Of a stretch of 13,687 bases of DNA, positions 2 through 13,687 are shown piece by piece; position 1 is the first letter of the stretch, and the number at the start of each line of letters is the position of its first letter. Origin of the DNA: Clostridium sp. UBA6758. GTDB taxonomy: Bacteria > Bacillota > Clostridia > Clostridiales > Clostridiaceae. A program made the position numbers and the translations under genes. The DNA is taken from the NCBI GenBank assembly GCA_002453475.1, contig DKGY01000029.1, positions 2,670 to 16,356 on the forward strand, given 5' to 3'. The notes beneath the pieces were generated by a model. It saw only the letters and a program-made list of their open reading frames with translations. It did not search any database and was not told the DNA's origin.

Positions 2-2170
2 AGAGAAGTGCTTATAAGCTTTATGAAAGAGAAGGCTTATAAACCAATGAGTTTAAAAGAATTATCTAAAATATTTGGTATAGGTAAAAAAGAATCTAAA
101 GAGTTTTCAAACCTACTAGATGAAATGGAGAAAGATGGAGAAATAATAAAAAATAGAGCAGAGTTATATGGTATTCCAGAGAGAATGGGCATACTTAAGG
201 GGGTTTTTGCAGCTAACCAAAAGGGCTTTGGCTTTGTAATTGTAGAAGAAGATAGACCAGATATATTTATCCCTGCTAGTAATGTGAATAGTGCCATGAA
301 CAATGACGTGGTATTAGTTAAAGTATTAAAAGATGAAAACAATGGTAAAAAATCTGAAGGGGAAATTATCAGAATTGTTGAAAGAAAGAACAAAAAATTA
401 GTTGGAACCTATGAAGATAGTAGAAACTTTGGATTTGTTGTGCCAGACGATAAAAAGATAGGTCAAGACGTATTTATTTCTAAAAATGATAGAAATGGAG
501 CTAAATCAGGTCAAATAGTAGTGGTAGAAATAACTAGCTGGCCAGAAAAGAGAAGAAATCCTGAAGGAAAAATCATTGAAATCCTAGGAGAAAAGGGAGA
601 TAAAGGAATAGATATCCTAACTATAATAAGAAAGCACAATCTTCCTGAAGAATTCCCAATACAGGTAGAGGAATATGCAGAAAGAATAGAAGATATGGTT
701 CCTCAAAGTGAAATTGATAGAAGAAGAGACCTTAGAGATGTAACTATGGTTACCATAGATGGAGAAGATGCAAAGGACTTAGATGACGCTGTTTCAGTAG
801 AAATCCTAAAAAATGGAAACTTTAAGCTAGGAGTTCACATTGCAGACGTATCTCACTATGTGAGAGAAAATAATGTCCTTGATAAGGAAGCCTTTAAAAG
901 AGGTACCTCTGTATATCTAATTGATAGAGTTATCCCAATGCTTCCTAGAAAACTATCCAATGGAGTATGTAGCTTAAATCCAAAGGTAGATAGACTTGCT
1001 CTTAGTTGCTTTATGGAAATTGATCCTACAGGAAAAGTAGTAGACCATGATATCTTTGAAAGTGTAATAAAAACTAATGAAAGAATGACCTACACCGATG
1101 TAACCAAGATTCTTAGAGATGAAGATGCTGAAACCATAGAAAAATATAAACATCTTCATGAAGATTTTAAGAATATGGGTAGATTATTTGAACTCTTAAA
1201 CAAAAAGAGATTATCAAGAGGTGCCATAGACTTTGACTTTGATGAGTGTAGAATAATCTTAGATGATACTGGTAAACCCATAGATATACTACCTCGTGAA
1301 AGAGCCATAGCCAATAGAATAATAGAAGAGTTTATGCTTATATGTAATGAAACTGTAGCAGAACATTTCTTCTGGCTTAATGCACCATTTGTTTATAGAG
1401 TTCACGAAGACCCAGACATGGAGAAATTATTACACTTCAGCGAATTCGTATATAACCTAGGATATCATGTAAGATTTAAAGAAGATGAGATTCATCCAAG
1501 GGAGCTTCAAAAGATTCTAGAGAATGTTAAAGGCAAGAAAGAAGAAACAGTAGTTAGTACTTTACTTTTAAGATCTATGATGAAAGCAAAGTATTCTCAG
1601 GTATGTGTAGGACACTTTGGTCTTGCTGCTAAATACTATTGTCACTTCACATCTCCAATAAGAAGATATCCTGACCTGGTAATTCATAGAATTATAAAGG
1701 AAATGATAAATGAAGGGTTAACTCCTAAGAGAGAAAAGAGACTAAAAACCTTTGTAGTAGATGCTTCAAGACAATCTTCTGACACTGAAAGAATGGCTGT
1801 AGATGCAGAACGTGAAGTAGATGACTTAAAGAAAGCTGAATATATGCTAGATAAGATAGGAGAAGAATTCGAAGGAATCATATCCTCTGTAACTAGCTTT
1901 GGTATGTTCGTTGAACTTCCTAACACCATAGAAGGTTTAGTTCACATTAGTGAGCTTCATGATGACTACTATATTTATGATGAAAAACATCTAGCGTTAA
2001 TTGGAGAGAGAACTAAGAATATCTACAGATTAGGAGATGAAGTTAAGGTAGTTTGCTCTAAGGTTGACATAGATGCTCACGATATTTACTTTGAGGTAGT
2101 CAAACCACAAGCAGAAGAAGAGGAAGAAGAAATGTCCCTAGACATTGATGATTTAATTTTTGGAGAGTAA
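2..2170 (+). CDS. rnr: Ribonuclease R (RNase II family 3'-5' exoribonuclease), 5'-partial
   Basis: Processive 3'-5' exoribonuclease that degrades structured RNA and, in trans-translation, the faulty mRNA released by tmRNA-SmpB. Numbering from the GTG at 8: an N-terminal winged-helix region (about 1-60), two cold-shock-like domains (about 62-200), the RNB catalytic domain (about 240-580) with the metal-binding motif DGEDAKDLDDA at 251-261 (family Asp ligands present), and a C-terminal S1 domain (about 617-705). The tail is acidic (a run of Glu, then DIDDLIFGE) rather than the Lys-rich tail of enterobacterial RNase R. The frame is already open at base 2 (Arg-Glu before the GTG). RNase R proteins normally carry a few residues before the LISFMKE-like motif, so the true start probably lies just off the left edge. 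It shares a neighbourhood with smpB and ssrA, the usual clostridial arrangement. Confidence 0.96.
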   Translation, partial: REVLISFMKEKAYKPMSLKELSKIFGIGKKESKEFSNLLDEMEKDGEIIKNRAELYGIPERMGILKGVFAANQKGFGFVIVEEDRPDIFIPASNVNSAMNNDVVLVKVLKDENNGKKSEGEIIRIVERKNKKLVGTYEDSRNFGFVVPDDKKIGQDVFISKNDRNGAKSGQIVVVEITSWPEKRRNPEGKIIEILGEKGDKGIDILTIIRKHNLPEEFPIQVEEYAERIEDMVPQSEIDRRRDLRDVTMVTIDGEDAKDLDDAVSVEILKNGNFKLGVHIADVSHYVRENNVLDKEAFKRGTSVYLIDRVIPMLPRKLSNGVCSLNPKVDRLALSCFMEIDPTGKVVDHDIFESVIKTNERMTYTDVTKILRDEDAETIEKYKHLHEDFKNMGRLFELLNKKRLSRGAIDFDFDECRIILDDTGKPIDILPRERAIANRIIEEFMLICNETVAEHFFWLNAPFVYRVHEDPDMEKLLHFSEFVYNLGYHVRFKEDEIHPRELQKILENVKGKKEETVVSTLLLRSMMKAKYSQVCVGHFGLAAKYYCHFTSPIRRYPDLVIHRIIKEMINEGLTPKREKRLKTFVVDASRQSSDTERMAVDAEREVDDLKKAEYMLDKIGEEFEGIISSVTSFGMFVELPNTIEGLVHISELHDDYYIYDEKHLALIGERTKNIYRLGDEVKVVCSKVDIDAHDIYFEVVKPQAEEEEEEMSLDIDDLIFGE

Positions 2171-4084: not shown

Positions 4085-4190
4085 AAGTTCTACTCCAAAT
4101 CTATAATTTGGTTAAGTAGAACTTACTCATTTGAGCGAAGCGAAAAGGAGTTTCCTTGCAACCAAGGAGAGAAAAGAAATCTATGCTTTG
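4085..4190 (+). repeat. Dispersed structured repeat, copy B
   Basis: It opens with a long two-part hairpin: AAGTTCTACT (4085-4094) pairs with AGTAGAACTT (4115-4124), enclosing CCAAAT (4095-4100) with ATTTGG (4106-4111). The shared module follows: ACTTACTCA, a GAGCGAAGCGA segment, AAGGAGTTTCCTTGC and ACCAAGG, then GAAATCTATG. TTTCCTTG and CAAGGAGA form a second small stem around CAAC. The bases of the first stem differ from copies A and C but stay complementary. This copy does not follow a gene end, unlike A and C. Confidence 0.65.
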
Positions 4191-4656
4191 ATTAAAAGTT
4201 GTAAAAAGCTTCCCAAATTGGAGGCTTAAATATTTGAAGAAATCCCTGAAACCACCACAGCGTCAACAACTAGTTAAATAGTTCCCTAGTTATATATTTA
4301 TATAGTTTTATATAAACATATTTTTATCGGTAAATAGTTTTCTATAGAAATAGAGAAAAATATAACAATTTAGCAAGTTTCCTATATAGATATTTTTAAT
4401 TTTAAACATTTAAAATATAGATTTCTCCTAGAAGGCTTGAATACAGTTATATCAAGGCTTTAGCTATGGAAGAACATGAAAACATAGGAACATAAAAAGC
4501 TAAAAACATGGAAATTAGTGAAATTAAATTAATATGAAAATTATTTTTATATGTCTATAACATTTTAAAGAATTAAAATTCATATATTTCAAGGTTAATA
4601 ATTACAATATTTTTATTTTAGGTTATAATAAAAATAGGATATACTATACAATACAT
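4191..4656. other. AT-rich gene-free stretch with small inverted repeats
   Basis: No gene is supported. Visible structure: a small hairpin AAGCTTCC (4206-4213) with GGAGGCTT (4220-4227), one G.T pair; a locally less AT-rich patch at about 4235-4275; and an inverted repeat TTTAGCT (4459-4465) with AGCTAAA (4498-4504) that encloses TATG/CATA. Neither strand carries an open frame with a ribosome-binding site, and no known riboswitch is recognised. Confidence 0.4.
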
Positions 4657-4679
4657 TTTAAATTTAGTAAAATCACATG

Positions 4680-4685
4680 TATAAT
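4680..4685 (+). promoter_or_regulatory. Probable -10 box for smpB
   Basis: A perfect TATAAT at 4680-4685, preceded by TG, lies 38 bases upstream of the smpB ATG. No good -35 is visible at 17 bp (TTTTAA-like). A second candidate -10, TATACT, lies at 4640-4645. Either would make smpB independent of adh, which fits the 960-bp gap. Confidence 0.45.
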
Positions 4686-4723
4686 GAGAAAATTATATAT
4701 TAATGATAAAAGTAGGTGAAAAC

Positions 4724-5191
4724 ATGGCAAAGAAATTAGGAACTAAGACTTTAGTAGAAAATAGAAAAGCAAGACACGATTACTTCATAGAAGAAGCTAT
4801 GGAAGCTGGAATAGTACTTGTAGGAACAGAAGTTAAATCTATAAGAGCTGGAAAAGCGAACCTTAGAGATAGTTATGCAGATGTATACAATGGAGAAGTT
4901 TTCGTAAAAAATATGCACATAAGCCCTTATGAGCAAGGAAACATATTTAACAAAGATCCTCTAAGAGTAAGAAAGTTACTTCTTCACAAAGGGGAAATAG
5001 ATAAACTTTTAGGATTCACGGCTCAAAAGGGGTATACTCTAATACCACTAAGCTTATATCTTAAAGATGGTAAAGTAAAAGTAAACCTTGGAGTTTGCAG
5101 AGGTAAAAAGGATTACGACAAGAGAGATGTAATGCTAGAAAAAGCAGCGAAGAGAGACATAGACAGACAAATGAAAGAGAAATACAGATAA
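4724..5191 (+). CDS. smpB: SsrA-binding protein SmpB
   Basis: Small basic RNA-binding protein that binds the tRNA-like domain of tmRNA, promotes its alanylation and delivers it to stalled ribosomes for trans-translation. The signature [21 protein letters not shown] leads into GTEVKSIR at 34-41, followed by LRDSYA. The basic C-terminal tail ([13 protein letters not shown]) is the part that enters the decoding centre. The product is 155 aa, normal for SmpB. The reading frame also has an ATG at 4703, but the start at 4724 is preferred: AGGTGA at 4714-4719 is correctly spaced and MAKKLGTKT is a typical clostridial N terminus. Its RNA partner ssrA lies about 970 bp downstream. Confidence 0.97.
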
Positions 5192-5258
5192 GAATCTAAA
5201 TCTTTGATTTAGTTATTAGAACCTACTCATGTGAATAAAGATGAGCAGGAGTTTATTT
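5191..5258 (+). repeat. Dispersed structured repeat, copy C
   Basis: It follows the smpB stop directly. It repeats exactly the hairpin of copy A: CTAAATC (5196-5202), TTT, GATTTAG (5206-5212). A diverged copy of the downstream module follows (ACCTACTCA, then GAGCAGGAGTTTA). Two of three loci therefore place this element at the 3' end of a gene, as a 3'-UTR hairpin. It has no T run, so it is not a typical intrinsic terminator. Confidence 0.65.
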
Positions 5259-5316
5259 GGCATAATAGAATTTTGATATGAAGTATGGGAAGTTTAAATA
5301 GGGGGAGCGGTAAGAT

Positions 5317-5928
5317 ATGAAAAGGATAATTACCATTCAACATACTCAATCAGTTCACCATACCAATGGAATGATTGGTTCATGGACAGATTGGGATTTA
5401 ACTAACCTAGGAAAAGAACAAGCAAATAACATTGGGATAAAACTTAAAGAAGAGCTTTCAAAAGATAATGTCTATGTTATGTATTCTTCAGATTTAAAAA
5501 GAGCAAAACAGACCGCCGAAATTGTAGCAAAGCATTTAAACTTAAAACCCATCATTAATGAAGCTCTAAGGGAACGTAACCTTGGTTCTGCTGTAGGCAA
5601 AAGTGTACAGTGGCTTAGAGAAAATCAAACAGCATGGGAAAAGACAATTGATGATAGATGTATACCAGATGTTGAATCAAGAAGAGAAACTTGGAATCGT
5701 CTAGAACCTTTCTACAATGATATAATTAGCAGTGATGATGAGAATATAATTATTGTTTCTCATGGAGATACATTAAGTATTTTCAACGCTATGTGGCTAG
5801 GACTTAAGCTAGATGATCTTAATAACTGTGATTTATTTGGATTTGCAGGTGGAGTTTCTCATTTTATAGAAGATGACAATGGAAAACACATCATAAAGAG
5901 ACTGGGCGATTTGTCTTATATAAAATAG
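5317..5928 (+). CDS. Histidine phosphatase superfamily protein (phosphoglycerate mutase-like) with QHT in place of RHG
   Basis: A 203-aa protein of the histidine phosphatase fold. The catalytic His9 is present, but the usual RHG signature reads QHT (Gln8-His9-Thr10), so the first phosphate-binding Arg is replaced. Other family residues remain: Arg62 (SSDLKRAKQTA), an acidic candidate Glu86 (LRERNLG) and the second His149 (VSHGD). No signal peptide or membrane segment is seen. The substrate is unknown; phosphoglycerate mutase, broad sugar-phosphate phosphatase or a non-canonical activity are all possible. The ATG is preceded by GGGGGAG at 5301-5307. It may be transcribed with smpB across a 125-base gap, and a strong terminator follows. 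Fold confidence is high; function is not assigned. Confidence 0.88.
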   Translation: MKRIITIQHTQSVHHTNGMIGSWTDWDLTNLGKEQANNIGIKLKEELSKDNVYVMYSSDLKRAKQTAEIVAKHLNLKPIINEALRERNLGSAVGKSVQWLRENQTAWEKTIDDRCIPDVESRRETWNRLEPFYNDIISSDDENIIIVSHGDTLSIFNAMWLGLKLDDLNNCDLFGFAGGVSHFIEDDNGKHIIKRLGDLSYIK

Positions 5929-5972
5929 TTAGATTTACCTATGTATAATAAAATAAATTTATATTTAGTGTG

Positions 5973-6001
5973 AAAGTATCATTATAAATGGTACTTTTTT
6001 T
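5973..6001 (+). terminator. Intrinsic terminator after the histidine phosphatase gene
   Basis: AAAGTATCAT (5973-5982) pairs with ATGGTACTTT (5988-5997), a 10-bp stem with one G.U pair and a 5-nt loop. It runs into seven Ts at 5995-6001. It separates this transcript from ssrA. Confidence 0.85.
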
Positions 6002-6086
6002 ATTTAAATAGATTTGACAAGTACCATATGTAGAATCTAAAGGAAATATGTCCATAAACACTATAAAACTTTTTACAAAACTTTAC

Positions 6087-6115
6087 TTGCTATAAGTATT
6101 GATATTGTTTATAAT
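6087..6115 (+). promoter_or_regulatory. ssrA promoter
   Basis: TTGCTA (6087-6092), a 17-bp spacer and a perfect TATAAT (6110-6115) form a good vegetative promoter. Transcription would start near 6122, leaving a leader of about 36 nt before the mature tmRNA 5' end. An isolated TTGACA at 6014-6019 has no good -10 partner. Confidence 0.8.
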
Positions 6116-6123
6116 GAATATAC

Positions 6124-6147
6124 GTGGTAATCACTAATAATTACCAC
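6124..6147 (+). other. Leader hairpin of pre-tmRNA
   Basis: GTGGTAAT (6124-6131) pairs perfectly with ATTACCAC (6140-6147) around an 8-nt loop, just after the predicted transcription start and 10 nt before the mature tmRNA 5' end. It would lie in the segment removed by RNase P. A role in processing is inference. Confidence 0.6.
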
Positions 6148-6255
6148 TACCTAACATGGGGGCGTACTGGTTTCGACGGGGGTACGTGACATATAGGAAG
6201 CGAGTAGAGGGAACTCATGGGCCCGCTTTAAAAAACTATGGGATTAAAGATAAAC

Positions 6256-6285
6256 GCAGAAGACAATTTTGCATTAGCAGCTTAG
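6256..6285 (+). other. tmRNA proteolysis-tag reading frame
   Basis: From the resume codon GCA the frame reads A-E-D-N-F-A-L-A-A followed by TAG. The LAA end is the degradation signal recognised by ClpXP-type proteases. The tag type fits Clostridium. Confidence 0.93.
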
Positions 6286-6497
6286 TATAGTTGCTCGTCC
6301 TACCTTTGAGTCCCACGGCTTAGGATAGGGCGCCGATTAGTGGGGAACCGAGCCATGGAAAGCTTTGACCATGGAACGGAATTTATGAAGCTACTGAAGT
6401 AGAAACCCGGTCTCTAGGGGTTCTATGGAGGGAATGTTAAAATAGAGACTGCACTCGGAGATGCTTATGTGGAATGGCTTTCGGACAGGGGTTCGAT

Positions 6498-6789
6498 TCA
6501 AAAGAGTCGCCTTAGAGAGTAATTTCTAAGTGAAAACTTGGCTTTATCGGTGAAACCGTAACAGATGGTGCTGACGGCAATACCGAGTGGTATGTGAAGA
6601 AATTCAACAGCCGTGTATCGACTTATAGGTTCCTAAGGAGTAATCTATGGAATACTAGGATAGAAGATATCAAACTAAACTATGCTTCTATAATACGCCA
6701 AGAGTCCTATACAGTATTCAACTTTAAAAGAGAATATTGGAAGAGGAGGAAAATATAGTCAGTACCTGCAGAGATGTAGGAAGTATATG
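6498..6789 (+). other. ORF-less group I intron in the T loop of tmRNA
   Basis: The insert divides the T loop TTCGATT between its sixth and seventh bases. P1 forms across the junction: CGATTC (6494-6499), AAAA, GAGTCG (6504-6509), with T6497.G6506 as the obligatory U.G pair at the 5' splice site. The intron ends in G6789, and GA (6504-6505) can pair with exon TC (6790-6791) as a short P10. P2: CTTAGA (6511-6516) with TCTAAG (6525-6530). Core-like helices: ACGGC (6574-6578) with GCCGT (6610-6614) enclosing ATACC/GGTAT. P7: GACT (6620-6623) with AGTC (6757-6760), extended past a one-base bulge by TAT/ATA. Peripheral arm: AATAC/GTATT, TAGGA/TCCTA, TAGAAG/CTTCTA (6651-6718). P9: CCTGC (6765-6769) with GTAGG (6776-6780). 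The layout recalls the phage T4 td (IA) intron. No endonuclease gene is present. Confidence 0.92.
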
Positions 6790-6812
6790 TCCCCTCGCCT
6801 CCACCATGAAAC

Positions 6813-6850
6813 CCTCGACAATACAGAAATGTGTTGTCGAGGTTTTTTTT
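6813..6850 (+). terminator. ssrA terminator
   Basis: CCTCGACAATAC (6813-6824) pairs with GTGTTGTCGAGG (6831-6842), 12 bp with one G.U pair and a 6-nt loop, followed by eight Ts (6843-6850). A textbook intrinsic terminator starting six bases after the encoded CCA. Confidence 0.95.
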
Positions 6851-6920
6851 ATTTAAGTTTGATGTATAAGTATTTCTTAAATATAGTTAAGGTGAATCGC
6901 ATTTGTAACTAAAATTAGAG

Positions 6921-6926
6921 TATAAT
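6921..6926 (+). promoter_or_regulatory. Possible -10 box of the restriction-modification operon
   Basis: A perfect TATAAT 45 bases upstream of the preferred hsdR start, with no convincing -35 at the right distance. It is the best candidate between the ssrA terminator and hsdR. Confidence 0.4.
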
Positions 6927-6970
6927 ATTATTGACAAGCTTATGTATTGGAAGTGATGGGAGCGGTGGAA

Positions 6971-9900
6971 ATGAATAATTTTAACTTTATAGGGGAAGTA
7001 TCAAAGCATCTCGAACATTTAGGAATAGATATGGAAAAATATTGTATTAGCCAAAAAGATGCATGTATGCTCGAAATAGATTTTTATTTTAATCATTTAG
7101 TTGACTTATTGTGTTCAAAATTAGAGATGAATATTGAAAAAGATACGTCAATAATTGAGAAAATAAACTTAATTCAAGAAAGTGGACAAGTTAAAATATC
7201 AGTGATAAGGGTTTTAGAATTAATAAGAAGAAATATAGTAGATTTTCAATTTGCTAAGATTACTGATAAAGCAATTTTATTATGCTTGGAAAGATGTTTT
7301 AAATTAACGAAATGGTTCTATTCATATGTTAGTGGAGATAATAAAAAGATAAATAAATGCTATATTATGCCTATAGATACGAACATAAAAATAGACTTTA
7401 ATAAAGAATATATTGAAAAGAAAAGGAAAGAAAATGATTCAAATTGTAAATTAGATATGATACAATTTAACGCTATAAAAAAGTCTAAGTCTATAGATAA
7501 ATTATGCTTAGATCAAATTACAGATGATTTAGGATTAACAGAAGAAGATACAAGAAAATTAATAATTGATATAATGCTTAAAGATGTTGGATGGGACGTC
7601 AATGATGAAAATTTTGTAGAGTTAGAATTTGAAGTTAATGGATATAATGCTAATCCATCAGGTACGGGACGTATTGATTATTTATTAAAAAATAAAAAAG
7701 GAGACCCAATTGCAATTATTGAAGCTAAAAAGACTAGTGTTGATCCATTAACTGGAAAGAAACAAGCTAAATTATATGCTGATAGTATTGAAAAAATGTA
7801 TGGAATTAGACCGGTTATATTTTACACAAATGGTTTTAATACATGGATTTGGGATGATATAGCTAAAAGTTCAGGAGCTCCAAGAGAAATCTGGGGATTT
7901 TATTCATTGGATGAACTAGAATTTATGATTATGCAAAGGGATATACTGAAACCTTTAAATATACAAAACATAGAAAAGTCAATAGTAGATAGAGAGTATC
8001 AACTAAAAGCAATTGAAGATATATTTAACACATTTACAAATGGAAATAGAAGAGCTCTGGCTGTAATGGCTACCGGTACAGGAAAAACAAGAACAGCGAT
8101 AGCATTAACTAAATGTCTTATTGAAGCCAATTATGCAAGAAGAGTGCTGTTTTTAGTAGATAGGGATGAACTAATAGATCAAGCTATGGAAGGCGATAAT
8201 AGTTTTAAGACGTTTACAAAATATACCAGAGTGCGAATAAAAGCAAACACTGCAAATGATAGAGATAAATGTTTATATTTTTCAACATATCAGGCTATGA
8301 GCAGATATTATAGAAATTTTGGAGTAGGTTTTTTTGACTTAATTATATGTGATGAGTCTCATAGAAGTATATATAAAGTGTATAAGGATATTATAGAATA
8401 TTTTGATGCATATTTATTAGGAATGACAGCTACTCCTAATGAGTTAATTCATAAAAACACGTATAAAGTTTTCAAGTGTATAGGTAAGAAACCAACTACA
8501 AGTTACACTTATGATGAAGCATTAGCTAACGTACCACCATACTTATGTAAATATACATCAATTAAGGCTTCTTCCAAATTTTTAACTAAAGGAATAAAAT
8601 GGAGTCAATTAAGTGAAGAACAACAAGAACAATTAACAGATGAAGGGTATGAAGAAGGATTAATTAACTTTAATGTTTCACAACTTGGAAATAGTATATC
8701 GAATGTTGCAACAGATAGATATATAATTAGCACACTACTACAACATGGCATTAGAGTTAAGGGAGAAATTGGGAAAAGTATAATATTTGCAAGAAATATT
8801 CCTCATGCAAATGATTTATTAAAACTTATTGATGAGATGTGTCCAGAAAGTAATGGGAAAATAGCAGTAGCAATACATGATAAAGTTAAGCATAATAAAG
8901 TACTACTTGAAGAATTTAAAAACAATGATATGCCTAGAATTGCAATTTCAGTAGATATTTTGGATACAGGAGTAGATATACCTGAAATTGTAAATTTATC
9001 ATTTGCTAAATCTACTCGTTCAAAAACAAAATTTCTTCAAATGATAGGAAGAGGAGTAAGATTGTGTGAAAATATATTTGGCAAAGGAATGGATAAAGAA
9101 GAATTTTTGATTATAGACCACTTTGGAAATTTCGAGTTTTTTGACATGAATCCTGAAGGGTATAAGCCAAAGTTTCCAGAATCACTAATTCAAATTAGGT
9201 TTAGAAGTATAATAAAATTATTAGAGTTGTATAGTGTTAAAAGTAAAGAAGTTTTATCAACGAGCATTTTGAAAAACATTGTAAAAGATATTAGAGGTGA
9301 AATAGCAAAATTAGATTTACGATCACCAATTATAAGAAAGCATATCGAAGTTATAGAGCAAATTAAAAAGAAGCAAAGATGGAATATAATAGATGAAAAC
9401 TTAATAAAAATATTAAAGCTTCATATAGTACCATTAATGGCATATGTAAGTAACAAAGAAGATTTTAGTTCTATATCTTTTGATACTAAAATTTATGAAA
9501 TAATCAGACTGAAATTATGTGATAATAACGAATATAAGGTAAGTATTAATTTAATGATAGCTGAATTAATAAAATTAAGATTAAATCTTAATGTTTTTGA
9601 TGGTAAGAGAGAATATTTTACAGAATGGATGGAGCAAAATAAATGGTATAATTCTAGTTGTGATGAAATATACGAATTTAGAATTCAAGCAAGAGATTTT
9701 ATGCGATATAAAAATACAAATGAAAAATTAAGGCTCGGAATTGATGTAGAAGATTCGGATTTTAAAATTGAAGACATAAAAAACGAAACAAATAAATTTA
9801 AAACTAAATCACAAATGATTGAAGAAGCTAAATTAATAATTGAATCTAAGGATTTTCTAAAGAATTTAATAAAAAAAATTAAAAATGGCTGTAGTATTGA

Positions 9901-10276
9901 TAGAGAGGAAATAGAAAAAAATATTAAATTATATAATGAAACAGTAACTGAATATGATTTAAAAATGCTATGTAAATTAACGGGAGTAAACGATGAAAAA
10001 AATATTGTAGCAATAATTAGAAAACTAATTGGCATAAATGAAAAAGTTTTAAATGATAAATTTGAAAATATTATAGTAAAACATAAAATAGTAGAAACTA
10101 AGGAGCTAGATATATTGAAATTAATACCAAAGGATATAGTTACTAATAACGGGATTGGATTGGATAGTTTATATAAAGCTCCATATACTAATATAAGTAG
10201 TAAAGGAATAGATGGGATCTTTTCAGAAGAAATTGTTGATGAAATATTTGAAGTTATAGAAAACTATAAAATATAA
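6971..10276 (+). CDS. hsdR: Type I restriction enzyme HsdR subunit (EcoEI-like) with N-terminal helical domain
   Basis: Restriction and DNA-translocation subunit; with the M/S protein it cuts unmodified foreign DNA. The product is 1101 aa. A helical N-terminal region (about 1-130) resembles the DUF4145-type domain found in some type I R subunits. The PD-(D/E)xK nuclease shows Asp236 (RIDYLL) and Glu251-x-Lys253 (IIEAKKT). The SF2 helicase has Walker A ATGTGKT (367-373), motif II DESH (461-464), motif III TATP (486-489) and motif VI QMIGRGVRL (from 690). The C-terminal part (FTEWMEQNKWYN and around) fits the EcoEI R C-terminal domain that docks onto the methylase. The ATG at 6971 is preferred because GGGAG at 6958-6962 is well placed; TTG 6947 or ATG 6956 are alternatives. 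The methylase gene starts 10 bases after its stop. Confidence 0.94.
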   Translation: MNNFNFIGEVSKHLEHLGIDMEKYCISQKDACMLEIDFYFNHLVDLLCSKLEMNIEKDTSIIEKINLIQESGQVKISVIRVLELIRRNIVDFQFAKITDKAILLCLERCFKLTKWFYSYVSGDNKKINKCYIMPIDTNIKIDFNKEYIEKKRKENDSNCKLDMIQFNAIKKSKSIDKLCLDQITDDLGLTEEDTRKLIIDIMLKDVGWDVNDENFVELEFEVNGYNANPSGTGRIDYLLKNKKGDPIAIIEAKKTSVDPLTGKKQAKLYADSIEKMYGIRPVIFYTNGFNTWIWDDIAKSSGAPREIWGFYSLDELEFMIMQRDILKPLNIQNIEKSIVDREYQLKAIEDIFNTFTNGNRRALAVMATGTGKTRTAIALTKCLIEANYARRVLFLVDRDELIDQAMEGDNSFKTFTKYTRVRIKANTANDRDKCLYFSTYQAMSRYYRNFGVGFFDLIICDESHRSIYKVYKDIIEYFDAYLLGMTATPNELIHKNTYKVFKCIGKKPTTSYTYDEALANVPPYLCKYTSIKASSKFLTKGIKWSQLSEEQQEQLTDEGYEEGLINFNVSQLGNSISNVATDRYIISTLLQHGIRVKGEIGKSIIFARNIPHANDLLKLIDEMCPESNGKIAVAIHDKVKHNKVLLEEFKNNDMPRIAISVDILDTGVDIPEIVNLSFAKSTRSKTKFLQMIGRGVRLCENIFGKGMDKEEFLIIDHFGNFEFFDMNPEGYKPKFPESLIQIRFRSIIKLLELYSVKSKEVLSTSILKNIVKDIRGEIAKLDLRSPIIRKHIEVIEQIKKKQRWNIIDENLIKILKLHIVPLMAYVSNKEDFSSISFDTKIYEIIRLKLCDNNEYKVSINLMIAELIKLRLNLNVFDGKREYFTEWMEQNKWYNSSCDEIYEFRIQARDFMRYKNTNEKLRLGIDVEDSDFKIEDIKNETNKFKTKSQMIEEAKLIIESKDFLKNLIKKIKNGCSIDREEIEKNIKLYNETVTEYDLKMLCKLTGVNDEKNIVAIIRKLIGINEKVLNDKFENIIVKHKIVETKELDILKLIPKDIVTNNGIGLDSLYKAPYTNISSKGIDGIFSEEIVDEIFEVIENYKI

Positions 10277-10286
10277 GGAGTTACGT

Positions 10287-12233
10287 ATGTTAAATATAGA
10301 ACTAAGGAATAAAATAGATAATATTTGGACAAATTTTTGGAATTCAGGAATAACAAACCCATTAACTGTAATTGAACAAATTACATACTTAATGTTTATG
10401 AAACAACTTGATGAAAAAGAAATGTTAAAGGAAAGAATTAGTAAAAGGACAAGAAAAGAGTATAAATCTATATTTACAGATGAAGAATGTAGATGGTCAG
10501 TTATTAAATTTAGAAATTCTACTGAAATGCTAAAGCTTACAAGGGAAAAAGCATTTCCATTCATAAGAGACTACGCAGGCGAAAACTCTACGTTTAGTCA
10601 ATATATGAGAAATGCATCATTTTTAATAACAGAACCAGAACTGTTATATAATTCAATTCAAGCTATAGATAAGTTACCGATGGACAATATAGATATTAAA
10701 GGAGATTTATACGAATATTTATTAAGTAAATTGACTACAGCTGGAGTAAATGGACAATTTAGAACACCATTGCATATAAGAAAACTTATGGTTAAATTAA
10801 CAGATCCTAATATAAATGATATTATTTGCGATCCTTCTTGCGGAACAGCAGGATTTCTTATAGAAGCAAGTGATTTTATATTAGAAAAATATACTTCAAA
10901 TGTAATTGTGGATGATGATGGGGTAGTTCATAATAAAATTGGTGATAAGCTATCTGAACAGCAAAGACAACATTTTGCAACAAAAATGTTCTATGGTAAT
11001 GATTTTGATATTACAATGCTTAGAATAGCGGCAATGAACTGTATAATACATGGAATAGAACCACCAAATATATTTAATTATGATTCACTTTCAACATCAT
11101 ATAATGAGGAAAATAAATATACTTTGGTATTAGCAAACCCTCCATTTAAAGGTAATGTAAATGAAAAATTAATAAATAAATCTTTGAAAAAAGTTATTAA
11201 GGCAAAGAAGACAGAACTTCTATTTATAGCACTAATTCTTAGAATATTAGATGTAGGAGGTAGATGTGCAATAATTGTTCCAGAGGGAGTTTTAACAGAA
11301 GCTTCAAAAAAAGATGGTAGAACTTTAAGGGAAAAATTAATTAATGAAAACCAGCTGGAAGCGGTTATATCTCTTCCACATACTATTTTTAAGCCATATG
11401 CAAGTGTAGCAACTTCAATATTGATTTTTAACAAGAGTGGGAGAACGGATAAAGTTTGGATGTACAAATTGGAGAATGATGGTTATAGTGATGGGTCTGT
11501 AAAGATACCAACACCAGATAAGGATGATATTCCAGACATATTAAATCATTGGAGTAAAATAAAAAATGGAAGTTATAAGGACGTATCTGGGAAGCATAGA
11601 TTTGTAGATAAGCAAGAAATAATAGAAAATGAGTATCAATTAATTACTAGAATGTATTTAGATGTAGTTAAACTTACAGATAAGTATACGTATGAGAAAT
11701 TAGGAGTATTGTGTACAATAGAGAAAGGGAATGTACCTGCTTCAGCTAATTCAGATGGAAAATTTATTTTAGTAACTACAGCAGAAGAGTTTAAGAAGTT
11801 TGATACATATGAATATGAAGATGAAGCTGTGTGCATACCTTTAGTATCGTCAACGGGACACGGTCATGCTAGTATAAAGAGAGTTCACTATGTATCAGAT
11901 AAATTTTCAGCTGCTACAATAATGGCGGTACTTAGGGTTAAAGATAAATCAATTTTAAACACTAAATATTTATATTATATTCTTCAGAATTATAAAGATG
12001 AAATTATTGTACCTTTAATGGCGGGAGCTGCTAATGTTTCTTTAAGTATTCCTAAGATAGAATCTATTAAGATACCTTTACCTAGTTTAAAGGAACAAGA
12101 AGAATTGATAGGGAAATTAGAAAATAATTCGAGAGAAATCATTAAACTAAAAGATAGCCTTAAGAATTGTGAAGAAAATCAAGAAAAGTATAATAGTGAA
12201 TTTAAAGATATTTTTAAATACAAAGAAAGTTAA
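10287..12233 (+). CDS. hsdM: Type I adenine methylase fused to a single-TRD specificity domain (HsdM-HsdS)
   Basis: N6-adenine DNA methyltransferase that protects host DNA and, through its fused recognition domain, sets sequence specificity for the complex. Residues about 1-140 are the HsdM N-terminal helical domain (VIEQITYLMFMKQLDE). The Rossmann methylase has the SAM motif DPSCGTAGF (182-190) and catalytic NPPF (284-287). From about 466 (KYTYEKLG) to the end is one HsdS-type target-recognition domain closing with IPLPSLKEQEELIGKLE and a coiled-coil-like helix. A classical HsdS has two TRDs; this fusion has one, so two copies probably pair to read a two-part, possibly symmetric, site (inference). 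AGGAG at 10276-10280 overlaps the hsdR stop, giving tight coupling. No separate hsdS follows. At 648 aa it is longer than a typical HsdM, in line with the fusion. Confidence 0.94.
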   Translation: MLNIELRNKIDNIWTNFWNSGITNPLTVIEQITYLMFMKQLDEKEMLKERISKRTRKEYKSIFTDEECRWSVIKFRNSTEMLKLTREKAFPFIRDYAGENSTFSQYMRNASFLITEPELLYNSIQAIDKLPMDNIDIKGDLYEYLLSKLTTAGVNGQFRTPLHIRKLMVKLTDPNINDIICDPSCGTAGFLIEASDFILEKYTSNVIVDDDGVVHNKIGDKLSEQQRQHFATKMFYGNDFDITMLRIAAMNCIIHGIEPPNIFNYDSLSTSYNEENKYTLVLANPPFKGNVNEKLINKSLKKVIKAKKTELLFIALILRILDVGGRCAIIVPEGVLTEASKKDGRTLREKLINENQLEAVISLPHTIFKPYASVATSILIFNKSGRTDKVWMYKLENDGYSDGSVKIPTPDKDDIPDILNHWSKIKNGSYKDVSGKHRFVDKQEIIENEYQLITRMYLDVVKLTDKYTYEKLGVLCTIEKGNVPASANSDGKFILVTTAEEFKKFDTYEYEDEAVCIPLVSSTGHGHASIKRVHYVSDKFSAATIMAVLRVKDKSILNTKYLYYILQNYKDEIIVPLMAGAANVSLSIPKIESIKIPLPSLKEQEELIGKLENNSREIIKLKDSLKNCEENQEKYNSEFKDIFKYKES

Positions 12234-12978: not shown

Positions 12979-13687
12979 TTGGGAATAGCAAAATGGTGGA
13001 AAATAGATTTTCATACACATACACCAGCAAGTAATTGTTTTAAAAATAAGTCAATTACAGAGGAAGAGTGGATTAATTCTGCTATTGATAGTGGCTTAGA
13101 TGGAGTGGTTGTTACAGACCACAACTCTGTTGAATGGGTAAAGAGATTAAGAGAAGCAAATAGAGAAATATTAAAAAAAGATAAAGATAGAAAATTAGCA
13201 ATATTTCCAGGAGTAGAATTGTGTGTTGGAACTAGTTTTATTCATGTTTTAATAGTTTTTAATCCGGTGTTATCGAATGAAAAAATACAAGAGTTTATAA
13301 CTAGAGCAGGAATAACTAGTGAGTATTATGCAGACACAACAATGCAAGTTAGTGAAGATGAATTATCAAAACTTATAAAGGAGTATGCTAATGATATTCT
13401 TGTAATACCTGCACATTTTAATAAAAATAAAGGCTTGTGCAAGGAATTAAATCAAAATGGAATAAAAGAATTTGCTAAAAAAATAAGAATTGATGCTATT
13501 GAGGTAAGAGATGAAGAGGATGAAAAGGAATATAATAATAAAGTAAGAAATAAGATAATAGCACCTGTAGCGTTAATAGTAGGCTCTGATAATCCAGGGA
13601 AATCACTAGGTGAACATTCGATTATAGGATTCGGAGACTCTTATACATATGTAAAAATGAGTGAATGTTCTATTGAAGGGTTAAGAC
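12979..13687 (+). CDS. PHP-domain protein, probable TrlF-type PHP-ATPase, 3'-partial
   Basis: The first 236 codons of a larger gene that runs off the right edge. It starts at TTG, with GAGGGG at 12967-12972 and a 6-nt spacer; no ATG fits. The N-terminal PHP metal-dependent phosphoesterase/nuclease domain shows the metal-site residues in order: His12 and His14 (DFHTHT), Asp47-His48 (VVVTDHNS), Glu80 (FPGVEL), His89, His146 (IPAHF) and Asp204 (GSDN). The closing GEHSIIGFGDSYTYVKMSE, then IEGLR, matches the end of the PHP domain in proteins where it is joined to a large SMC/AAA-like ATPase (TrlF-type family). That ATPase half would lie beyond the window. Its position beside a restriction-modification operon suggests a defence role (inference). 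A stand-alone PHP phosphatase is the alternative. Confidence 0.85.
   Translation, partial: MGIAKWWKIDFHTHTPASNCFKNKSITEEEWINSAIDSGLDGVVVTDHNSVEWVKRLREANREILKKDKDRKLAIFPGVELCVGTSFIHVLIVFNPVLSNEKIQEFITRAGITSEYYADTTMQVSEDELSKLIKEYANDILVIPAHFNKNKGLCKELNQNGIKEFAKKIRIDAIEVRDEEDEKEYNNKVRNKIIAPVALIVGSDNPGKSLGEHSIIGFGDSYTYVKMSECSIEGLR

Follow-up and report, generated by a model that had tools for sequence, protein, structure and literature searches.

A T-loop group I intron of a clostridial tmRNA gene and a candidate endonuclease partner in its relatives

The ssrA locus and its interruption

The window, that is, the whole stretch of 13,687 nucleotides from Clostridium sp. UBA6758 that was analysed, carries the tmRNA gene ssrA among the neighbours listed in Table 1. 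The type I restriction genes that follow ssrA occupy the place where relatives have an endonuclease gene or an island. At 12979–13687 stands the start of a gene cut by the window end, which we take to be PHP-type phosphoesterase-like, with HTHTP near its start.

Table 1. Features of the window and helices of the ssrA intron (window coordinates).
Feature	Coordinates	Strand	Remarks
rnr	8-2170		upstream part of window
iron alcohol dehydrogenase gene			between rnr and smpB
smpB	4703..5191	+	protein partner of tmRNA; PF01668, E 3e-62
histidine phosphatase gene			between smpB and ssrA
possible ssrA promoter	6087..6115	+	TTGCTA-17-TATAAT; match to consensus alone
ssrA, whole	6158-6806	+	intron included; precursor 649 nt
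ssrA 5′ exon	6158..6497	+	340 nt; tRNA-like 5′ part, tag reading frame, T-arm 5′ part; RF00023, ARAGORN on joined exons
tag reading frame	6256..6285	+	AEDNFALAA-stop; ARAGORN
group I intron	6498..6789	+	292 nt, terminal G
P1	6494..6509	+	CGAU/GUCG spanning the 5′ splice site, U6497.G6506
P2	6511..6530	+	hairpin, GUAA (GNRA) loop; 8/8 pairs change on both sides
P3	6537-6542/6697-6702	+	spans 6537..6702; encloses P4, P5, P6, P6a, P7.1, P7.2
P4	6547-6551/6582-6586	+	
P5	6556-6559/6574-6577	+	
P6	6587-6590/6611-6614	+	
P6a	6595-6598/6603-6606	+	
P7	6620-6623/6757-6760	+	spans 6620..6760; guanosine-site helix GACU/AGUC, pseudoknot with P3
P7.1	6630-6633/6649-6652	+	
P7.2	6660-6666/6685-6691	+	
P8	6705-6708/6744-6747	+	spans 6705..6747; 4/4 pairs change on both sides
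P9.0	6762-6764/6786-6788	+	spans 6762..6788, around P9
P9	6765-6769/6776-6780	+	GAGA loop
ssrA 3′ exon	6790..6806	+	17 nt; T-arm 3′ part, acceptor strand, encoded CCA
terminator-like hairpin	6813..6842	+	3′ of ssrA
type I restriction-modification genes	6947..12233	+	hsdR 6947-10276; hsdM with specificity domain 10287-12233

The tmRNA model RF00023 covers 6166–6500 with a score of 120 bits, its match stopping at the T loop, and ARAGORN finds no tmRNA in the unspliced window. On the joined exons ARAGORN returns a 357-nt tmRNA with the tag AEDNFALAA, together with another, permuted call that overlaps it and wraps round from one end of the joined piece to the other. A preliminary description of this DNA had proposed a 292-nt insert splitting the T loop and a 357-nt tmRNA upon excision; its coordinates and junctions were correct, and the tmRNA is found at that length. 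The junctions read TTCGAT|TCAAAAGAGTCG...GTATATG|TCCCCTCGCCTCCACCA, with T6498 alternatively readable as exon, in which case the insert is without a terminal G. In our reading the insertion point is position 7 in the nomenclature of PMC11915505, the site of most known ones. Within the window intron there is no endonuclease reading frame, and the longest listed ORF has 54 aa.

Intron-form tmRNA genes were reportedly treated by Williams in 2002. A recent survey, in the part available to us, counts 883 unique intron-form tmRNAs from 21 phyla, most at position 7, with an average of 293 nt in the founding intron set and an endonuclease gene inside 36 of the 883 (Nawrocki, Petrov and Williams 2025; PMC11915505); that part mentions no endonuclease gene beside ssrA. 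The window intron is like the published ones in its T-loop position 7, its −1 U paired with G, its terminal G, its size of about 290 nt, the lack of an endonuclease inside and its host in Bacillota, and there is no essential difference. Similarly, the tmRNA intron of C. botulinum, another species, has 287 nt against 292 nt here, in a precursor of 649 nt in both, and shares the 5′ splice-site letters CGAU; the accessible portion of PMC2729099 states that it had already been shown to self-splice and mentions a crystallisation oligonucleotide, CGAdT, used with it. Taken alone, the window intron is another copy of a published kind. The class had at first been described as reported but rare; it is indeed reported, but with 883 unique sequences, and 49 carriers among 225 Clostridiales genomes, it is commoner than implied.

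Fold and conservation of the intron

The group I model Intron_gpI (RF00028) matches 6483–6781 with 29.0 bits (E 2.5e-5), and a default Rfam scan of the window reports no group I intron because this score lies below the gathering score of 50. In the Rfam check suggested in the preliminary description, the tmRNA match is broken at the T loop and the intron match is present but below the gathering score. This threshold is a convention of scoring and does not define the class; the tmRNA intron of L085 also stays below it, with 35.5.

Relatives of the intron were collected by BLAST and by pattern. BLAST of 58 related genomes matched 12 of them, 11 with an intron adjoining tmRNA; G040, a short BLAST match without an intron in Rfam, was rejected as a carrier. 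A search of genome_contigs with a core pattern of 20 bases returned 71 matches, spread over 70 loci; 67 of the matches lie at the T loop. Four pattern matches without T-loop context (L046, L064, L082 and L086), about the number estimated for chance, were rejected as introns of the lineage outside tmRNA. Neither an exact core-pattern match in viral_contigs nor a blastn match in phages or plasmids was found. Boundaries were solved for 76 of 83 core matches, three of the seven unsolved ones running off the sequence end, and the relatives yield 66 distinct introns of 241–432 nt. Alignment A1 holds 61 of these, the five longest (L055, L062, L081, L099 and L107) being left out. Among the genomes searched, the nearest relatives are C. 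sulfidigenes, at 94%, and Clostridium sp. UBA1056, at 93%.

The tmRNA intron of L087, a contig labelled Bacillus subtilis DE0224, closely resembles the one in Lederbergia (L079), and the label may be wrong. The weak model matches in L156 and L158–L162, from other Clostridia families, are anticodon-loop introns of tRNA genes, called by ARAGORN as Tyr(GTA) and in L162 as Thr(TGT). L085, from a MAG labelled Thermincola ferriacetica, carries a second copy of the 3′ part of ssrA and its intron 2.2 kb downstream (330 bp, 95%; region 4150–7000), with a 361-aa two-motif LAGLIDADG_1 gene between the copies on the same strand as ssrA.

A structure of 72 pairs was hand-written for the window and scored on the 61 aligned introns. 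Standard pairs fill 95.5% of the pair cells, compared with 36–42% when the 3′ partners are slid by 1–3 columns. For covariation the structure scores 0.452, where shuffled alignments reach 0.172 and slid ones 0.07–0.10. Both partners change in 45 of the 72 pairs, and the agreement of the fold across the 61 introns is beyond chance. These two-sided changes occur in P2, P3, P6, P6a, P7.1, P7.2, P8 and P9.0. P4 and P7 are near-invariant; the four P7 pairs, placed at the GACT/AGTC pairing noticed earlier and paired in 61 of 61 introns, never vary and so neither support nor contradict the fold. The conserved core from P3 to P8 with the P3/P7 pseudoknot, a trait of group I introns, is present. Subgroup IA is marked by P7.1 and P7.2 between P7 and P3, and here both helices stand there, with 3 of 4 and 5 of 7 pairs, respectively, changing on both sides.

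The pair at the 5′ splice site, which the preliminary description had given as U6497.G6506, is U.G in 64 and C.A in two of the 66 distinct introns, and these are the two forms described in the part of PMC11915505 available to us. L2 is a GNRA loop in all 61 aligned introns, and a GNRA lies somewhere in the P9 region in 58. The P2 and P9 hairpins proposed earlier can both be placed, the former with every pair covarying, while the inner P9 pairs are weak, with 51% of cells pairing in a poor alignment. The terminal G, given correctly as G6789, was demanded in the relatives by the boundary script, and their G count is not independent; the 3′ splice site is supported independently of it because P9.0, all three pairs of which change on both sides, places it at G6789.

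On the strength of this fold, the window insert is almost certainly a self-splicing group I intron, as the preliminary description had proposed. The precursor would fold the intron with P1 setting U6497 at the 5′ splice site. A guanosine bound in P7 would attack at U6497, and the freed 3′ OH of the exon would attack after G6789, leaving the T arm AGGGG UUCGAUU CCCCU and the 357-nt tmRNA. Before splicing, the T-stem halves of the two exons can pair with each other, which may keep the splice sites close. It is extremely improbable that the intron no longer splices and that ssrA is a pseudogene: the weak Rfam score and two outer P8 pairs mismatched in the window row would suit such a loss, but core helices, GNRA loops, P9.0 and the terminal G are all retained, both ssrA exons are kept and the tag frame is open, and smpB is intact.

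Dependence of the host on splicing for its tmRNA is plausible, unless a second ssrA lies elsewhere in its genome. Group I splicing requires guanosine, and ssrA would need splicing for function; on a regulatory view, the intron would make ribosome rescue depend on RNA folding or on the supply of guanosine. No sensor domain was noticed, and the intron is dispensable since 37 of 48 related genomes with ssrA above the cut-off are without it; we consider regulation very unlikely to be the role of the intron.

A convergent LAGLIDADG gene beside ssrA in relatives

A motif scan of the intron loci found single-motif LAGLIDADG frames downstream of ssrA on the opposite strand, with 3′ ends 34–74 nt past ssrA (326 nt in one). 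Fifteen of the endonucleases were aligned and are 46–76% identical to the first. Pfam assigned six to LAGLIDADG_1 or _3, three reaching the cut-off and three just below it. An AlphaFold model (pLDDT 93) has I-CreI as its best Foldseek match and also resembles I-MsoI, which is the nearest solved sequence. I-CreI and I-MsoI are homodimers and intron-encoded. The endonucleases of the relatives share with them one motif per chain, a similar length and the same predicted fold, whereas their genes lie outside the intron. By motif and predicted fold, the gene belongs to the LAGLIDADG homing endonuclease family. Of the 29 genes of full or almost full length that were examined, 28 keep the motif with its catalytic acid. 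The motif scan found no such frame in 30 intron-less ssrA loci (L014–L043), beside three of which (G013, G020 and G035) a later profile search found endonuclease fragments. It also found none in the window, to 6.9 kb past ssrA; the chance that the gene lies beyond the right end of the window in this genome is about even.

The profile was built from endonucleases beside introns, and it maps where this family lives rather than all endonucleases. In a class-wide sample, 17 of 391 Clostridia genomes had a profile match and ssrA was found in 15, in every one of which the endonuclease shares a contig with ssrA and lies downstream of it in convergent orientation. The other two matches sit close to a contig end: the contig of G420 stops within the 3′ end of ssrA, and that of G191, which has a full-length endonuclease gene, shows no ssrA sequence before it stops. 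L144 (a partial second copy) and L153 (a degenerate T arm) in the class sample are without intact T-loop context.

The census of 225 Clostridiales genomes counted the intron in 49, the endonuclease or its remains in 49, and both in 32. The 49 introns are 48 found by the intron model R1 plus G480, added from a remaining intron half. For 30 of the 48 R1 hits the location at the T loop was observed, in one by eye, and for 14 further hits it follows from a tmRNA hit ending beside the R1 hit; the position check covers all of the 48 but G465, G490, G571 and G594. Intron and endonuclease co-occur with an odds ratio of 17.6 (p 1e-14), a genome-level value without tree correction over related genomes that are not independent. 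Counted by genus, 13 have both, 6 the intron alone, 5 the endonuclease alone and 32 neither (p 6e-5). In all 46 same-contig pairs with ssrA, from 16 genera, the endonuclease is downstream and convergent, including all 31 that carry the intron, and 26 endonuclease matches lie less than about 0.5 kb from the R1 or tmRNA hit. Outside the order the coordinates read the same way in 9 of 9 further genomes, which the class sample adds after the six it shares with the order sample.

Twenty-three genomes have the intron with a full-length endonuclease gene, nine have it with a partial or decayed gene, 17 of the 49 carriers have it with no endonuclease trace at threshold, 17 of the 49 with the endonuclease have a gene or scar without the intron, and 159 have neither. 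Of the 26 full-length genes, 23 accompany the intron. One of the three others (G575) has lost the catalytic acid, reading IGGIIDSKG for IAGIIDGEG, beside a consensus T loop. The other two, G528 and G529, have an intact motif beside an intron-less ssrA with the T loop TTCGACA, and the T stem of L057, a relative with the intron, hardly differs from theirs. Beside six intron-less ssrA genes there are only partial endonuclease copies, 38–46 nt away, and such copies look like scars. The pattern agrees with a homing cycle where the site must be occupied or altered if the enzyme is active, with G528 and G529 as exceptions unless their altered loop resists cutting.

A Mantel-type distance comparison used 22 distinct loci of 27 offered. 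Endonuclease distances correlate with those of the ssrA exon (0.80) and of the intron (0.71); the partial correlation is 0.38 for intron given exon (p 0.0015) and 0.62 for exon given intron (p 0.0005). Because endonuclease distances follow the ssrA exon more than the intron, most intron-endonuclease pairs seem co-inherited, with little sign of recent transfer. The same correlation, and the 17 and 17 genomes in which the two occur apart, can be read to mean that the intron is old and vertically inherited and that the endonuclease is an unrelated selfish gene homing into the ssrA flank. Against such independence stand the co-occurrence, strong by genus too, the company of the intron at nearly all full-length genes, and the phage tmRNA intron that contains an endonuclease of this family, and we find it unlikely.

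The phage case is viral contig IMGVR_UViG_3300028797_000007 (L280), one of at least 80 loci with viral relatives of the endonuclease, which among the matches listed are at most 44% identical over most of their length (L349 is 51% identical over 49 residues). Run on 80 viral loci, R1 gave 25 bits for L280 and 20–22 bits for L350, L307 and L327. In L280 the tmRNA scores 47.6 bits against a gathering score of 47, the T loop is split at the same point as in the window by R1-like sequence, and a fitting 3′ exon lies downstream. The intron contains an antisense endonuclease frame 42% identical to the L102 protein. L280, though a single case, ties the endonuclease family to tmRNA introns independently of chromosomal neighbourhood.

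A probable two-part element and putative islands at the ssrA 3′ end

A partnership of intron and endonuclease in this lineage is likely from the position, orientation and co-occurrence of the gene. The intron would be one half of a two-part mobile element moved in trans, and the other half the single-motif LAGLIDADG gene, convergent and about 40 nt past ssrA, a little beyond its terminator. The endonuclease would cut intron-less ssrA at the near-palindromic DNA of the T arm, and repair from the donor would copy the intron and the adjoining endonuclease gene together by co-conversion. By splitting the cut site, the intron would protect its own host. A self-splicing intron together with a two-part element in the lineage is, with good confidence, the best explanation as a whole. 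The full version, a selfish element in two pieces with cleavage of the empty T arm, co-conversion, host immunity, census classes as stages of a homing cycle and islands that separate the halves, we hold somewhat more probable than its negation.

Collaborative, or trans, homing in phages combines an ORF-less intron with a free-standing endonuclease for the same site, according to the part of a review available to us (PMC3984707). As described there, it shares with the present lineage an endonuclease-less intron and a separate endonuclease gene near the insertion site, and in the relatives the gene is linked to the intron but outside it. The lineage differs in its bacterial chromosomes, the tmRNA gene and a LAGLIDADG gene in a fixed convergent position, whose enzyme is predicted to cut the site.

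In some relatives other genes lie between ssrA and the endonuclease. The DNA ahead of the displaced endonuclease gene was searched for remnants of the 3′ end of ssrA in 14 such cases out of about 22. A remnant or copy lies 39–68 nt before the gene in eight (G001, G239, G326, G529, G531, G019, G005 and G463). None was found at threshold in six, among them G007, where only a degenerate CTCCACCA stands, missed at the script threshold. Random 120-nt windows from the same loci pass in 190 of 8400 trials (2.3%). With remnants in 8 of 14 against this control, elements that use the ssrA 3′ end probably entered between ssrA and the endonuclease gene. No attachment repeat, meaning a further copy of the 3′ end of ssrA, occurs in the window, which ends 6.9 kb past ssrA; perhaps islands, some with defence genes, at the ssrA 3′ end separated the two halves here as well.

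Twenty proteins from five such stretches, part of the frames there, were scanned. They include type I restriction genes in G007, a SIR2 protein close to LmuA in G001, a type II-like methyltransferase in G019 and a weak PDC-M68B/LmuB match in G531; none of the 20 is an integrase. The segment that separates ssrA from the endonuclease gene (6947–12233 in the window; L178, L179, L270 and L271) frequently contains genes of defence type and could be a defence hotspot. In L184 (G326), a second, partial copy of the intron and the ssrA 3′ end adjoin the endonuclease gene, 2.7 kb past ssrA.

These stretches also bear on whether the intron persists as a shield of ssrA against integrating islands. It does split the region that serves as attachment site, but stretches bounded by ssrA 3′-end repeats lie directly downstream of intron-bearing ssrA in relatives such as G001, G019, G531 and G005, and the 3′ exon alone seems enough for islands. 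We disfavour the shield, which has hardly any chance of being right.

In the titles and abstract openings of the literature on tmRNA, ssrA and homing endonucleases, and further into PMC11915505, PMC3984707 and PMC13153191, a body that mostly leaves subscription papers outside, an endonuclease gene beside ssrA is undescribed. The linked convergent gene, seen in relatives and not in the window, may be the new part. It suggests a way, open to test, in which tmRNA introns could be mobilised although few contain an endonuclease gene, 36 of 883 in the survey as far as it was available (PMC11915505). If the enzyme cuts empty ssrA, the trans homing of phages would extend to bacterial chromosomes, and genomes that tolerate an active enzyme could be predicted. 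The two-piece element, if true, would explain the spread of mostly endonuclease-less introns to many phyla.
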